A stretch of DNA of 36,508 bases from Geobacteraceae bacterium. GTDB lineage: Bacteria > Desulfobacterota > Desulfuromonadia > Geobacterales > Geobacteraceae. A program made the translations under genes and the position numbers. Below are positions 23,433-29,918 of this stretch, one piece after another. The stretch is from contig JANXYN010000049.1 of NCBI GenBank assembly GCA_025356035.1, positions 1 through 36,508 on the forward strand, written 5' to 3'. Positions within the stretch are counted from its first letter, which is position 1. Each line of letters opens with the position of its first letter. The notes under the pieces were generated by a model. The model did not search any database, was not told where the DNA came from, and was given only the letters and a program-made list of their open reading frames with translations.

Positions 23433-24914
23433 TTAGAATATCCGCACATCCCCGGCGCTTTTCTGCTCCCGCGAGTAGATCCCCTGCAGGGCATCCTGGA
23501 TCTGGCGCACCTGGGGAAACTGTTTCCCCATCTCGAAATAGATCTCCTGGGACTCGGAAAATTTCTTGGTCCGATAATAGGCCTCCGCCAGCTCCACCAG
23601 CAGCAGCGGGTCGTTGGCCTCGATCTTGTTCTTGTTCCCCTTGTCCCGTCCCGCCTCCATGAAAGTGACCGCCTTGGCGTAGTTCTTCCTGGAGAGGTAG
23701 TAGCCGCCGAGAGCGGCGTTGACGCTGAAGAACTTCTTCCCTTCACCACTCTCCGCTGCAGCTGTTGCCCGCTGCAGCAGCTTAGGCGCCTCGGCTCTCA
23801 GCTCGGCACAGGCGGCAACAGCCTCCGCCAGCAGCTCTGGATCTGCCGGCTGTTTCAGGGCAAGCCCCTCCCACTCCTTCACCGCTTCGGCCCTGTGCCC
23901 CTGGCGGAACAGAATCGCAGCCTCACGGACATTGGCCCGACCCCGGTAAGAGGCAGGGAGTTTGCCAGCGGCAGCTGATGCTGCGCTGAAGCGTGATGCC
24001 TGCTCAAGGCTGCCGAACCGATAATGGGCCTCACCAAGATAATATTCCGCGGTTTCCCTCAGTTTCGGGTCGGCCGCACTCCTCGCCAGATAGGTAAGGG
24101 CGGCCTGACCGTAGAGCTTGGTCAGGACTTCCAGCAGTGCCAGGTCATAGAAATAGATAGTCTTGTTTTTCCCCAGCTTTTCTTCATAGGAGTAGGTCCT
24201 GAGATCTGCATTTCTGATGAGATCGAGACCCTTGTCTGTTTGGGAAAGGCTTGTATAGACCGCCAAGGCATCCTTCAACAGTCGCATGGGGATCTTCTTA
24301 CCCCCTTTTTTGGCCGCTGCGACTGCCTTGTCACACATGGCCAGGGGCTCACGCTCGGCCATGCCTGCCCTGCCGAACACGGCGGCCAGCGCTCCCTGTA
24401 CCTCCGGATCGGTGGCAACAACCGCTTCCCAGAGCTGTTTCGCCTTGTCCTGGTCTCCCTGCAGATGGTAGCACAAGCCAAGTTCAGCCTTGGCTATGGC
24501 CAGGTACTTCGCCGGCAGATTTTCCCCCAGCAAAAAACGTTCGAGCAGGGGAGCCGCCTCGCCCGGCTTATCGTTATCGAGGAGAAGTTCCGCCAGATAC
24601 AGGTCGACAAAGTGGCTCCCCCCCTTCCCCTGCCCAGTTCCCAGTCGCTTCAGATAATCGTAATAGATCAACGCCGAGGTCTGCTGCAGTTCCCGGTGCA
24701 GGGTGGCGCTTTTCAGGTAGGTCATCCCAAGCGCAAGATTGATACCGCCCAGCCGGTCGGCCCCGGCAGTGGCCAGGCTCTGCCGTAGAAGACTTGCCGC
24801 CTCTTCGTAGTGACGCTGTTCATAGAGTTTCATACCATGGGTCAGCGGGTCGCCCGCAGCATACGCCGCGCCACAGATGGTAAACAAGACAGCAGACATT
24901 AAAAACCAGCGCAT
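23433..24914 (-). CDS. Exported TPR-repeat protein
   Basis: 493 residues with a signal peptide (about residues 1-20, cleavage after AYA) and repeated helix-turn-helix units of TPR type through most of its length, for example GMKLYEQRHYEEAASLLRQSL near 27, LGLCYHLQGDQDKAKQLWEAV near 145, YYLGEAHYRFGSLEQASRF near 293 and LGGYYLSRKNYAKAVTFMEAG near 400. Such proteins act as periplasmic scaffolds. GTAGGAGT precedes ATG 24914. It lies 31 bases after the TolB-like gene and 136 bases before oppA, on the same strand. Partner and function unknown; the context suggests a complex with the propeller and PEGA proteins. Confidence 0.85.
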   Translation of the reverse strand: MRWFLMSAVLFTICGAAYAAGDPLTHGMKLYEQRHYEEAASLLRQSLATAGADRLGGINLALGMTYLKSATLHRELQQTSALIYYDYLKRLGTGQGKGGSHFVDLYLAELLLDNDKPGEAAPLLERFLLGENLPAKYLAIAKAELGLCYHLQGDQDKAKQLWEAVVATDPEVQGALAAVFGRAGMAEREPLAMCDKAVAAAKKGGKKIPMRLLKDALAVYTSLSQTDKGLDLIRNADLRTYSYEEKLGKNKTIYFYDLALLEVLTKLYGQAALTYLARSAADPKLRETAEYYLGEAHYRFGSLEQASRFSAASAAAGKLPASYRGRANVREAAILFRQGHRAEAVKEWEGLALKQPADPELLAEAVAACAELRAEAPKLLQRATAAAESGEGKKFFSVNAALGGYYLSRKNYAKAVTFMEAGRDKGNKNKIEANDPLLLVELAEAYYRTKKFSESQEIYFEMGKQFPQVRQIQDALQGIYSREQKSAGDVRIF

Positions 24915-24945: not shown

Positions 24946-26238
24946 TTAATGTTTCAGCTTTGCGACAAAAATCTGGTCCCACTGATTGACCTGGGCGCGG
25001 AAGGCAATCGCTCCTTCGGCCGAGCAGGAGACATCATGATTCATCTTGGTATCGGTCTTCAGTGGCAGATTGGTTTTATCCCTGAGATCAGCCAGGTAGA
25101 GGGGATTGTATTCCTGCTTGTCGTTCTTCACATAGACGAGCCGAGCACTGTCAGGAAGCCACGCCGGCCCGCGTTCCACATCGGGGACGACATCGGTGGC
25201 AACAACCTTTGCCGCCAGTCCCTCGCCGTCAGAGGGGTCCGAACCGTCCGCGGCGATTACCACGATGGACCAGATTTTTGGGTCGCCGGCCGAATTGTAG
25301 TTGGAATAAAAGGCGATCTTGCTCCCGTCAGGCGACCAGACCGGCCTTAGATCGTCGTAATTCCAGCGGGTAAGGGCCTTCATGGTTTCGCCAGGCCGCG
25401 CCGGATCGGCGATCAGGTAGATGTCATGGTTTTCGTTGCCGCCCCGCATCAACACGATCTTTTTGCCGTCCGGCGACCATTGGGGGAAGAGATGGGCCTT
25501 GCCGCCCTGGGTGAGCCTGCTGAGCTCCTGATTGGCGAGGGTCAGCAGGTAGATATCGCCTCCCTTGCCGGTGCGTCCTGAAACGAAGACCAGCTGGTCT
25601 GCCACCGGAGACCAATGGGCATGGCCATCTTTCTCCTTGTGGTTGGTAAGTCTCCTGGTGTTCTTCGTGCCGAGTTCGCCGAGATAGAGATCGTAGTTTC
25701 CCTCCCCGCCATTGCTCATGAACACATAGCGCTCACCGCCGGGTGACCAGCTGAGCCCTGCATTGTAGCTCACCTCGTCAATGATCCCGGGAAGAAACAG
25801 CTGCATCTCCCCCTTTCCAGCGGAAAGCTGGAAGTAGATGCGCTGCAGCTCGGTACCATCCGCCCAGGCAATGATGATCTCTTTCTTCTCAGCAGTGCTC
25901 CGTTCAAATGCGATAAATTCTCCGCTGGGCGACCAGACCGGATTGGCATCGTTATGCCCCGCTTCTATCGCAGTCAGCGGCCGAACGGAGAGGGGTTCGA
26001 CCGGTTCCGGTTTCTTTTCCTCGGGCCTAATTTCTACGGATTTTACCGGGAGCCCCTGCTCCGCCGGCTTTGCTGGTTCAGACGGGGCGACCGGTGAAGA
26101 AGCTAGTGGGGCCTTTGCCGGCGCAGGCTGTATTTCAGCTGCAGTCGCCGTTGCCGTCACAAGCAAAGCCGCAAGCAATGCCCCTCCTATACCTCTCCTG
26201 TTCCATGCCAGATGCAAGCAAACCCCCTTGATCATCAC
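24946..26238 (-). CDS. Periplasmic TolB-like beta-propeller (PD40 repeats)
   Basis: 430 residues with an N-terminal export signal (hydrophobic GGALLAALLVTATATAA near residue 18) and a proline/alanine-rich linker. It then carries five or six WD40-like PD40 blades, each marked by a WSP[DG]G or equivalent motif: NPVWSPSGEFIAF, LSWSPGGERYVFMS, HWSPVADQLVFVSG, PQWSPDGKKIVLM, RPVWSPDGSKIAFYS and AWLPDSARLVYVK. The N-terminal TolB domain of true TolB is not evident. The frame starts at GTG 26238 with an adjacent ATG at 26235; ribosome site weak. It sits 48 bases behind the PEGA lipoprotein. Probably a periplasmic interaction platform. Confidence 0.87.
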   Translation of the reverse strand: MMIKGVCLHLAWNRRGIGGALLAALLVTATATAAEIQPAPAKAPLASSPVAPSEPAKPAEQGLPVKSVEIRPEEKKPEPVEPLSVRPLTAIEAGHNDANPVWSPSGEFIAFERSTAEKKEIIIAWADGTELQRIYFQLSAGKGEMQLFLPGIIDEVSYNAGLSWSPGGERYVFMSNGGEGNYDLYLGELGTKNTRRLTNHKEKDGHAHWSPVADQLVFVSGRTGKGGDIYLLTLANQELSRLTQGGKAHLFPQWSPDGKKIVLMRGGNENHDIYLIADPARPGETMKALTRWNYDDLRPVWSPDGSKIAFYSNYNSAGDPKIWSIVVIAADGSDPSDGEGLAAKVVATDVVPDVERGPAWLPDSARLVYVKNDKQEYNPLYLADLRDKTNLPLKTDTKMNHDVSCSAEGAIAFRAQVNQWDQIFVAKLKH

Positions 26239-26286: not shown

Positions 26287-28875
26287 TTATTGCTCCTTGA
26301 TCTGATCCCAATACTTCTGGGCAGCCTCGCGGTTCTGCTCGAAGGTACTATTTCCTTCGAGCGCCTTCGGGAAGAAGTCGAAGTATTCCCGCCAGGCCAG
26401 GTTGGCGCTGTTCAGGACATTGTTCTTCTTGGTAATTAGATAGAGCTTGTGATAGGAGAGGGCCATATAGTAATAGGTGTCATGCACCGCCTCGTCGTAC
26501 TTCTTGGTCGGAAAGAAGCGGGTGTTCTGCTTGGCGATCTGCAGATTCTGGATCGCCTTGCCGAAATATTTGGCGGCCGCATCCTTGTCCTTGTGCACCA
26601 GGGCATTCCCCTTTTCGTAGTAGGCGTGCCCCAGATTGGTATAGGCCACCGCGAACTGCTTATAGACCAGCTGTTGGTTCTCGGGGAGGGTCAGCACATT
26701 TTCGAACTCGCGGATGGCGCTGTCGTAATCGCCCTGCTCGTCCAGGTAAAGCTGTGCCAGCAGATGATGGGCCTCGGAATAATCGGGATGCCCTTTCTGG
26801 GTGCTGCTGTAGGCTTGGATAGCGCCATTCACATCCCCCTTCGCCAGCGCCTTGTCCGCCAGCTTCAGATAATCCTTGTGCAGGACGATCCGTTTGCCGC
26901 CGGTGCGGTCCTCAACCTTCTTGTCGAACTCCACCACCTCTTCCCAATCCCGGTAATTTTCGCCGATGGTCAGCCGCACCGTATGGAAACCGAGGGTGAC
27001 CGGCTTCCCCCCGCTAAGGGGCGTCTTGCCAAAGGATTCGCCATCAACGTATACCGAAGCCCCGTCGGGCTGGGATTCGACCTTGAAGATCGAGTTGTTG
27101 ACGGTAAGCGCAAACTCTTTAGTTTCACCGTTCTTGTCGACCCGGAACTTGTCACTGATCTGCTGGTAGCCATGCCGGTATAGCACCATCGAATAATTCT
27201 TGCCGACCCGGATCGGCACTTCCACCTTGCCATCGGCGCCGGTCGAAGCGATCCAGTCGTTGTTCAGATAGATATTCACACCGGCCAGCGGCGATACATC
27301 AGGGGGAACACCACCCTTGGCCGAAAGAACGAAGTAGTTGCGCTCCTTGTCCCCATCTCCCTCGCGGGGGACATAGCGGGTCACCCGGTCACCGATGGCC
27401 ACTTTCTCACCCTTTTTCAGGTCTTCGACCGCCACCAGGGCGCTAGAGTCATCGACCTTCTTGACCTTGGCATTCCCCACCGTCCGGTAGCCAATCACCT
27501 TGCCCGCCTCGTCAAACTTGGGGGTTTTCACGTCAAACTCCATCCCCTTGCCGATCCGGTAGGCCGATTTACCCAGATTGATGCGGAACCGATCGTCTTC
27601 GCTCCCCACCACTGTCCCCTCGAAGGGGAACCGCTCGATCACGCTGGCAACAATATCCTTGGCAGCACTGTTGACATCCCCGGCGCTTTTTGCCCTGCTC
27701 AGCTGGCTCAGGATCAGCTTGCCGCTGGAGGTGTAGAACTTGGTCTCGATCAGGAAACCCTTGTCATCCTTGGCAACGCTGCCGATGACGATCATGTCCA
27801 CCGTTCTGATCAGCTGGCTATTCTGCCACCCCTTGCTGGTCAGCTTGTCAACCCCAATCCTGGCCCGTTTCATCTCGGCCTGGAGGGTTTTGGTCGGGAC
27901 CTCGCGGAAGCCCGCGTACTTGAACAGCTGGCCGCGCAGCGCCTCTTCAGTCCGGTCCAGCATCTCCTTCAGGTCCGCCCCCGGCGTGTTGCTGCCGAAC
28001 GCGTAAATCCCCGTTCTGATAGGTTTTGGCGTGGCCGGGTAAAAATAGTGCTGGATATCCACCTCGCCTTGCAGCACCACCGATTTCTCCCAGCTGGCCG
28101 GGATATAACCGGGCGCGGAGAGGGTAACCCGGGCCTTCTTACCGGTGGCGACCGCATAGATCTTGCTGAATTTCCCACTGGCATTGGTCTTCCCCAGCTC
28201 CTTGCCGTTGACGCTCACCGTCACTCCCGGCACCGGCTTTGCCCTGCCATATTCATCGGTGAAGCAGCCGACAACCAAGGAGGTCCGCTCGCTGAGGGCT
28301 ACCTCCAGCTTCTCGCCAGGCTTCACCTTAGCGGTTTTTTGCCAGGAGCCGAAACCCGGCTTGCTCACCGTAATGGCAAAGCCCCCTTTCGGCATGGCCT
28401 CATATTCATAAATAAATGCGCCGCTGGCATCGGTCTTCCCCACTTCCTTGCCACCTACCGCGATGCTCGCGTCTCCAACCGGCTTTCCCTCATCGGTAAC
28501 AACGATACTGATCAGCTGGGAGGCCTTGAGATCCGCAGTGAACGAATACTTGTCCACTTGCCCCTCTTTGGGGAGCTTGACCACAAACGACCCTTTCCAG
28601 GGCATGATGGTATAGCCGGGGAGTTCTTTACTGACCGTCACTTGGACTTCAGCGCCACCCTTCTTGCGAATGATCTTGCTGAAATTGCCCTTGGCGTCGG
28701 TTATCCCCTGCTCCTTGCCGTCCACTGTCACTTTCGCCTGATCTGCCGGCTTACCGTCGAGGCGAGCCTGCAATTCGAGCTCAAGCTTCTCGCCGGTCTC
28801 CTTCTCCCCCTGACAGGCGAAAAGTGCCGCCAGAACAAAGATTGTCCCAACCAATTTCAGTGTCTGCTTCAGCAT
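26287..28875 (-). CDS. Large lipoprotein with Ig-like repeats, FlgT-C-like region, PEGA and TPR domains
   Basis: 862 residues. A signal peptide ends in the lipobox LFAC (Cys21). Residues of about 30-290 hold three carboxypeptidase-regulatory/Ig-like modules with the recurring pattern VxGKExGxTDAxG (near 50, 145 and 230). The middle (about 310-505) resembles surface-assembly proteins: a CsgG/FlgT-like block (MIVIGSVAKDD) and a FlgT-C-like block (GTVVGSEDDRFRINLG through KGEKVAIGDRV). A fourth Ig-like module near 540, a PEGA domain near 596-655 (QPDGASVYVDGESFGKTPL) and C-terminal TPR helices (666-862) follow. The ribosome site AGGAG precedes ATG 28875. PEGA and TPR proteins usually act in envelope or surface structures; the substrate or partner here is unknown. 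Confidence 0.85.
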   Translation of the reverse strand: MLKQTLKLVGTIFVLAALFACQGEKETGEKLELELQARLDGKPADQAKVTVDGKEQGITDAKGNFSKIIRKKGGAEVQVTVSKELPGYTIMPWKGSFVVKLPKEGQVDKYSFTADLKASQLISIVVTDEGKPVGDASIAVGGKEVGKTDASGAFIYEYEAMPKGGFAITVSKPGFGSWQKTAKVKPGEKLEVALSERTSLVVGCFTDEYGRAKPVPGVTVSVNGKELGKTNASGKFSKIYAVATGKKARVTLSAPGYIPASWEKSVVLQGEVDIQHYFYPATPKPIRTGIYAFGSNTPGADLKEMLDRTEEALRGQLFKYAGFREVPTKTLQAEMKRARIGVDKLTSKGWQNSQLIRTVDMIVIGSVAKDDKGFLIETKFYTSSGKLILSQLSRAKSAGDVNSAAKDIVASVIERFPFEGTVVGSEDDRFRINLGKSAYRIGKGMEFDVKTPKFDEAGKVIGYRTVGNAKVKKVDDSSALVAVEDLKKGEKVAIGDRVTRYVPREGDGDKERNYFVLSAKGGVPPDVSPLAGVNIYLNNDWIASTGADGKVEVPIRVGKNYSMVLYRHGYQQISDKFRVDKNGETKEFALTVNNSIFKVESQPDGASVYVDGESFGKTPLSGGKPVTLGFHTVRLTIGENYRDWEEVVEFDKKVEDRTGGKRIVLHKDYLKLADKALAKGDVNGAIQAYSSTQKGHPDYSEAHHLLAQLYLDEQGDYDSAIREFENVLTLPENQQLVYKQFAVAYTNLGHAYYEKGNALVHKDKDAAAKYFGKAIQNLQIAKQNTRFFPTKKYDEAVHDTYYYMALSYHKLYLITKKNNVLNSANLAWREYFDFFPKALEGNSTFEQNREAAQKYWDQIKEQ

Positions 28876-29010: not shown

Positions 29011-29460
29011 CTACATGGTGGGGGGCTGGATATTCACTTCACCCGGGTTGACGATCTTATCCTCGTCGCTTTTGGACCCCTCGATCGACTTGCGCTTTCC
29101 TTCGTGGATCTTCTTCAGCTTGATTTCCAACTGCTTGCGCGAAAACCGGCCAAGCTCGACGGTCTGGGTATCGGTCAGATAACCGATCCGGCTCGCCTCG
29201 ACCTTGTAGATCCCCTTGGCGACGCCGTTTTTGAGCGAGCTGAATTCGCCTTTTTCGTCGACGGTCACCGAATGGGAGGCATTTTCCAGCGCCGAAGTGG
29301 TATTGATCATGTTGATCACAGTTCCCTGCGGGCTTTCCTGGGGCACCAGCCGCATATTGGCGTCCAGCAGCTGCACGTTGCCATATATTTTGGGTGAGCA
29401 GGCCGAAAGGAGCAGCGCAGTTGCAGCAAGTAGTACCAAGCGAAGCGTTGTTGAATTCAT
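29011..29460 (-). CDS. Small lipoprotein with one Ig-like (carboxypeptidase-regulatory-like) domain
   Basis: 149 residues, first gene behind the riboswitch. The signal peptide ends in LLSAC (lipidation at Cys21). Residues of about 25-115 form one beta-sandwich of the carboxypeptidase-regulatory type: KIYGNVQLLDANMRLVPQESPQG, VTVDEKGEFSS and IYKVEASRIGY, a pattern repeated in the larger lipoprotein encoded next. The tail is lysine-rich (KKIHEGKRKSIEG) and ends in a proline-containing stretch. AAGGAGAG lies close to ATG 29460. The 232-base leader up to the riboswitch terminator shows no other gene. Function unknown; it may interact with the PEGA lipoprotein. Confidence 0.82.
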   Translation of the reverse strand: MNSTTLRLVLLAATALLLSACSPKIYGNVQLLDANMRLVPQESPQGTVINMINTTSALENASHSVTVDEKGEFSSLKNGVAKGIYKVEASRIGYLTDTQTVELGRFSRKQLEIKLKKIHEGKRKSIEGSKSDEDKIVNPGEVNIQPPTM

Positions 29461-29684: not shown

Positions 29685-29746
29685 ATATAAAAAGCCGCCA
29701 AAGAAGTATATTAAAAATAGCTTAATACACCGATTCTTTGGCGGCT
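29685..29746 (-). terminator. Rho-independent terminator, expression platform of the riboswitch
   Basis: On the minus strand a 13-bp perfect stem (29734-29746 with 29693-29705) encloses a second A/T-rich stem (GTATTAA-type pairing) and is followed by TTTTTATATTTT. It lies 16 bases beyond the 3' side of the aptamer P1 helix and before any coding region, so it is a conditional terminator rather than a gene end. A short alternative pairing, AGUAUA (just 3' of P1) with UAUACU next to the 3' terminator arm, is possible but weak. Confidence 0.85.
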
Positions 29747-29761
29747 CGACTGGCGTATACT

Positions 29762-29879
29762 AACAACAGCGTTTCCACCCTGCTTCCGTGGCGGGCACTG
29801 CTGATAAATTTAGCCTCGTGGCTCTGCGTCCCCCGGTTTCCCAAGGTTTGCTCTGAGCAAAGATCTTGCTTCAATTGTT
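29762..29879 (-). ncRNA. GEMM-I riboswitch aptamer, Ib subtype (predicted 3',3'-cGAMP sensor)
   Basis: The minus strand carries the conserved cyclic-dinucleotide riboswitch core. It has CAGAGCAAACC (29847-29857 region), a stem CCUUGG/CCGGGG closed by a GAAA tetraloop (29837-29840), the GGGACGCAGAGCC joint (29826-29832 and on), GAGGCUAA, and the 3' helix CCAC...GCAGGGUGG at 29775-29791. P1 can form from AACAAU (29874-29879) and GUUGUU (29762-29767). At the position equivalent to G20 of the Vc2 c-di-GMP riboswitch, directly before GCAAACC, the base is A (plus-strand T29852). A at this site marks the GEMM-Ib subtype, which prefers 3',3'-cGAMP and occurs in Geobacter. Ligand selectivity is a prediction. 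Confidence 0.88.
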
Positions 29880-29890
29880 CTTTTGGCAAC

Positions 29891-29918
29891 ATTTAACATT
29901 AGTTTGACAGGTTGTCAA
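29891..29918 (-). promoter_or_regulatory. Promoter of the riboswitch-controlled operon with an overlapping dyad
   Basis: On the minus strand a perfect TTGACA (29913-29918) and TTAAAT (29891-29896) are spaced by 16 bases, placing the start near 29884, just before the aptamer. The -35 box is half of a perfect dyad, TTGACA-GGT-TGTCAA (29904-29918 on the plus strand), which may be an additional protein-binding site. Confidence 0.65.

Follow-up and report, generated by a model that had tools for sequence, protein, structure and literature searches.

Two described systems stand closest to the element reported here, the Geobacter GEMM-Ib or 3',3'-cGAMP riboswitches (pilM, pgcA and the proven cGAMP aptamer 4YAZ) and the Vc2-like c-di-GMP-I riboswitches (GEMM-Ia; RF01051). 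In the cGAMP switch of pilM, which acts as an ON switch, the terminator sequesters C75, the equivalent of C92 in the numbering used here (PMC9262584), and C75 and C76 of 4YAZ are the equivalents of C92 and C93 (PMC6274999). At position 20, an A20G change shifts the selectivity of the Gmet_0970 riboswitch from cGAMP to c-di-GMP (PMC6456294), while a Vc2-type RNA with G20A binds cGAMP (PMC6274999) and may bind both ligands. Hypr enzymes, the cGAMP-type GGDEF proteins, are defined by a serine at the GHxxGS position (PMC8835794).

The window analysed here is a stretch of 36,508 nucleotides from a Geobacteraceae bacterium (assembly GCA_025356035.1, contig JANXYN010000049.1). The covariance search that a sequence-only reading of this DNA had proposed was positive: cmscan found a single Rfam match in the whole window, to RF01051 (c-di-GMP-I/GEMM-I), scoring above the gathering threshold of 35 bits and covering model positions 1-87 (Table 1), and it reported no match to RF03167 (c-di-GMP-I-GGC) in the window. 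The GEMM parts listed in that reading, namely GCAAACC, a GAAA-capped P2 stem and GGGACGC, are all present in the stated order on the minus strand, and the base 5' of GCAAACC is indeed A and not G. Two features go beyond that list, a long P3 arm (49 bases vs. 10 in the model) and a G48-C81 pair. By every test made, the predicted element is a genuine GEMM-I riboswitch of a known kind. The 49-base insert of P3 (29806-29757, minus strand) has a hairpin of its own; the insert of a paralogous element in the same genome (L008) is similar in size and different.

Table 1. Features of the predicted riboswitch and of the genes downstream of it, in window coordinates.
Feature	Position	Strand	Basis
GEMM-I / c-di-GMP-I aptamer	29737..29862	-	RF01051, 50.6 bits, E 3.6e-7, complete model
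P1 5' strand UCUUUG, pairs with CAAAGA 29740-29735	29858..29863	-	compensated pairing in 11 related elements
Position 20 = A (Rfam position 11); J1/2 CUCAGA = 29857-29852	29852	-	cmscan alignment
C46 (29826), A47 (29825), G48 (29824; co-varies with C81 at 29743)	29824..29826	-	A48/U81 vs. G48/C81 in relatives
C92 (29741), predicted Watson-Crick partner of ligand guanine	29741	-	cmscan alignment; 4YAZ C75 equivalent
C93 (29740), P1 partner of G14	29740	-	cmscan alignment; 4YAZ C76 equivalent
Intrinsic terminator stem; 5' arm 29747-29734 covers C92 and P1 3' strand	29692..29747	-	fold -30.2 kcal/mol
Terminator U-tract	29689..29693	-	sequence
Putative sigma70-like promoter: TTGACA 29918-29913, 16-nt spacer, TTAAAT 29896-29891	29891..29918	-	sequence; L008 counterpart
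First downstream gene: 149-aa lipoprotein-like (LLLSACS); CarboxypepD_reg-like below cut-off	29011..29460	-	
862-aa lipoprotein-like: CarboxypepD_reg, PEGA, TPR; likely same transcript	26287..28875	-	
PD40 beta-propeller protein; likely same transcript	24946..26238	-	
TPR protein; likely same transcript	23433..24914	-	

The promoter and the terminator named in the sequence-only reading both needed qualification. The putative sigma70-like promoter has a perfect -35 hexamer but a poor -10 hexamer that matches at four of six positions, and a consensus scan made no call; paralogue L008 carries TTGACA-N11-TAATGTTA with the same spacing. The 13-bp terminator with its U-tract is present and strong, but it does not lie just downstream of the aptamer as had been stated: it overlaps the aptamer, and its 5' arm extends from 6 nt upstream of C92 to 7 nt downstream, taking in the whole P1 3' strand. 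The 13-bp outer stem belongs to a helix of 24 bp in total with one 3-nt bulge, and the full-leader fold is -74.6 kcal/mol (z -4.2), with equally good folds in 0 of 200 shuffles. Because of this overlap a switch mechanism can be proposed, and the anatomy argues for the earlier suggestion that ligand binding prevents the terminator, since C92 and the P1 3' strand are used by the terminator 5' arm.

The overlapping pairings were compared in 11 related elements, those of Desulfuromonadia (L004, which is the window's element, L008, L023, L024, L034 and L035), Nitrospirota (L151), Acidobacteria (L084) and Gemmatimonadota (L120, L124 and L127). Covariation is found at the P1/P2/P3 junction: in these 11 elements P1 pairing is kept via compensating U-A, C-G and G-C swaps at positions 10-12, and in the relatives inspected in full the 48-81 pair is either A-U or G-C. 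A terminator-like outer stem through C92 is kept in all 11 elements; in seven of them it reaches into the P1 strand, with the 3' arm tracking the same changes, and an obvious T-run follows the outer stem in nine (L084 and L124 have no clear T-run). Since strand-sharing and compensating P1 changes recur in these elements, the predicted ligand-ON transcriptional switch is well supported. The canonical GEMM-Ib elements of the same genome show the same overlap, with terminator arms beginning 9-16 nt before C92, and the terminators of three elements with G20 (L003, L007 and L009) begin at least 20 nt after C92, two further ones (L002 and L005) being ambiguous. Computed energies favor the terminator state over the P1-forced full-length state by about 20 kcal/mol, so that switching must be kinetic and decided during transcription.

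We consider it fairly probable that the element is a GEMM-I transcriptional ON switch whose likeliest physiological ligand is 3',3'-cGAMP from a GacA-like enzyme of the host. RNA polymerase would start near 29885 and transcribe the aptamer first. A ligand bound at the P1/P2/P3 junction would hold P1 (29863-29858 with 29740-29735) and C92, by which the 3' strand would be barred from the terminator and transcription would read through into a lipoprotein operon that we infer to extend from 29460 to about 23433. Without ligand, 29747-29734 would pair with 29705-29692 and transcription would stop at the U-tract. The switch most likely turns on a surface-lipoprotein gene group upon binding of a cyclic dinucleotide, probably cGAMP and possibly also c-di-GMP. 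Beyond single domains, no orthologues of the 862-aa operon protein were found in the order.

The host genome has 19 GGDEF matches, one of which (L057 on contig C124) reads GHLIGS..GGDEY, with GHLIGS replacing GHxxGD, and has an N-terminal receiver domain as judged by eye. Its best match in the PDB is 6d9m (E 3.2e-67; 2.6e-31 for the next structure), a receiver/GAF diguanylate cyclase listed as an endolysin fusion. We take 6d9m to represent a construct of GacA from G. metallireducens, the structure described in PMC6456294. L057 is a close GacA homologue and is predicted to be a cGAMP-type (Hypr) GGDEF protein.

The 3.4-Mb host assembly, of which the window is contig 132, contains 14 RF01051 matches, which fall by eye into four sorts. 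Five elements have G20 (L002, L003, L005, L007 and L009), and six are of the canonical Geobacter GEMM-Ib type (L006 and L010-L014), with AATACTNAACC..CGGAAAGCC, alternatively given as TACTNAACC..CGGAAAGCC; these six sites match the description of 4YAZ in having A14 and C15-G40 (PMC6274999). A20 in a Vc2-like core is found twice, in the window and in L008, which precedes a TonB-receptor-like gene (by eye). The fourth sort is a further GEMM-I variant (L001; G000:C103:18275-18352), best matched by RF03167 yet with A at 47 and C-G at 21-46. Other observations on these elements are that L005 (G000:C74:696-778, minus strand) lies directly before an ORF with an anaerobic carbon monoxide dehydrogenase-like start (by eye), that a GGDEF gene (L060) lies immediately upstream of canonical element L013 (G000:C170:18360-19094), and that canonical GEMM-Ib elements occur in tandem as L010/L011 (G000:C220:10382-10660) and L012/L014 (G000:C52), the C220 pair having identical aptamers and lying close to a contig end.

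A search of 277 genomes of the class Desulfuromonadia for A20 with GCAAACC..GGGACGCANAGCC gave 70 sites, spread over 53 genomes; the G20 form gave 51 sites, spread over 44 genomes. G48 is found at 28 of the 70 A20 sites vs. none of the 51 G20 sites (p 2e-8, uncorrected for relatedness). In the relatives inspected in full by eye, A48 is accompanied by U81 and G48 by C81; the two positions therefore behave as a base pair. An automatic count over all loci, made with looser criteria, gave 75 A-U, 22 G-C, 14 A-C and 1 G-U, several of the A-C cases being misassigned 3' ends. A48G as a possible new specificity base was considered and dropped, since the exchange is at the least one of compensated pairing at the base of P3. 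In RF01051 model numbering, the A20 relatives exchange position 81 with 39 (A-U/G-C); in the structure line of Rfam, 81 is paired with 40.

When one genome per species was scanned, A20 elements turned up in many phyla among the matches listed, and elements that combine A20 and G21-C46 are common in Firmicutes, Chloroflexi, Gammaproteobacteria and others, likewise among the matches listed; most of 18 sampled loci have a GEMM-I match at the pattern. Hypr genes were sought in 95 non-Desulfuromonadia genomes with an A20 element (5 with G48 and 90 with A48; many are metagenome bins). They were found in 3 of the 5 A20+G48 genomes, which represent the window's branch outside Desulfuromonadia, vs. 1 of the 90 A20+A48 genomes (Fisher p 2.8e-4), a co-occurrence drawn from few genomes and related sequences; the pattern survey found no Hypr gene in the other two A20+G48 genomes, both Gemmatimonadota MAGs. 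The Hypr pattern was used without an extra hydrophobic constraint, which would miss real Hypr genes such as that with GSRTL in the genome of L084, and each match was inspected in frame, most other matches not being GGDEF genes. As a control for this type of pattern, the GD form detected ordinary GGDEF genes in 48 of 50 genomes. Within Desulfuromonadia the comparison cannot discriminate, since the loose pattern matches almost every genome (268 of 277). Two GGDEF domains of Gemmatimonadetes genome G315 (L226 and L231) have Asn at the Hypr position (GHEAGN).

Hypr genes in only 1 of 90 genomes that have A20 without G48 make A20 alone a poor marker of cGAMP. The earlier statement that the A variant prefers cGAMP may not hold in general, A20 in a Vc2-like context being widespread in bacteria without a detectable Hypr GGDEF (A20/A48 elements L064-L183; Firmicutes, Chloroflexi, Gammaproteobacteria and others). 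These bacteria have many ordinary GGDEFs, and they lend some weight to an alternative in which a Vc2-like pocket accepts A20 and the ON riboswitch in fact responds to c-di-GMP; G11 of Cd1, the equivalent of G20, is described as a selectivity factor and not a hard filter (PMC9262584). We regard this alternative as unlikely: the same bacteria carry A48, whereas the G48-C81 branch of the window co-occurs with Hypr genes, the host has separate G20 elements for c-di-GMP, and A20G flips a Geobacter riboswitch to c-di-GMP (PMC6456294). A sensor that answers c-di-GMP as well as cGAMP at the concentrations found in cells is rather improbable, even with the precedent of the G. sulfurreducens riboswitch before the OmcST operon, for which a response to both has been reported (PMC6456294), and with a window core that lies between those of Vc2 and canonical GEMM-Ib. 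A match that is degenerate or due to chance and no longer binds ligand, to which the non-standard P3 pairs under the Rfam model and the long extra arm might point, is very improbable given the score above gathering, the close paralogue in the genome and alternative pairings conserved across phyla.

We favor cGAMP as the leading reading, with c-di-GMP cross-talk possible, because the combination of A20 with G48-C81 co-occurs with Hypr enzymes across phyla; this branch probably senses cGAMP. Tentatively, we suggest that a second lineage of cGAMP riboswitches, to which the window's element would belong, spans several phyla; separate from Geobacter GEMM-Ib and extending to Nitrospirota, Acidobacteria and Gemmatimonadota, it would combine A20 and G48-C81 in a Vc2-like core with a direct-terminator ON design. 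The branch may be a new variant, with earlier reports possible given a limited literature search. If such a lineage is real, cGAMP riboswitch control reaches well past Geobacter and its relatives and A20 is no marker by itself. Labelling all A20 GEMM-I elements cGAMP-selective is unsafe. If the ligand is cGAMP, an uncharacterised surface-lipoprotein operon joins the cGAMP pathway that controls Geobacter metal respiration, and A20 with G48-C81 becomes a testable sequence rule for phyla in which, in that limited search, cGAMP switches have not been described.

The description of the element as a cGAMP-selective GEMM-Ib riboswitch can thus be kept in part. It is a GEMM-I element with A20, in a genome with a GacA homologue and six canonical sites, but the canonical C15-G40 pair (positions 21-46) and J1/2 sequence are absent, and it is therefore filed here as GEMM-I with A20. 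Like the Geobacter GEMM-Ib switches, it has A20, A47 and C92 in a three-helix junction fold and a terminator 5' arm that includes C92 and the P1 3' strand, from which ligand would keep both in the ON state, as in pilM, and its host encodes a putative GacA-type enzyme. It differs from them in having G21-C46 and CUCAGA where the canonical branch has C21-G46 and another J1/2 (A9-A14 and C15-G40 in 4YAZ), in its G48-C81 pair and long P3 arm, and in lying before lipoprotein genes and not cytochromes or pili. With Vc2-like GEMM-Ia RNAs it shares the core GCAAACC..GGGACGC and G21-C46 and CxCAGx in J1/2; it differs from them in having A and not G at position 20 and G at position 48. The c-di-GMP-I-GGC family (RF03167) is of the same clan and fold, with a consensus G at position 47 where the window has A. 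The window core is nearer to Vc2 than to the canonical cGAMP aptamer, and the window's element and its one paralogue form a branch separate from the proven Geobacter cGAMP switches.
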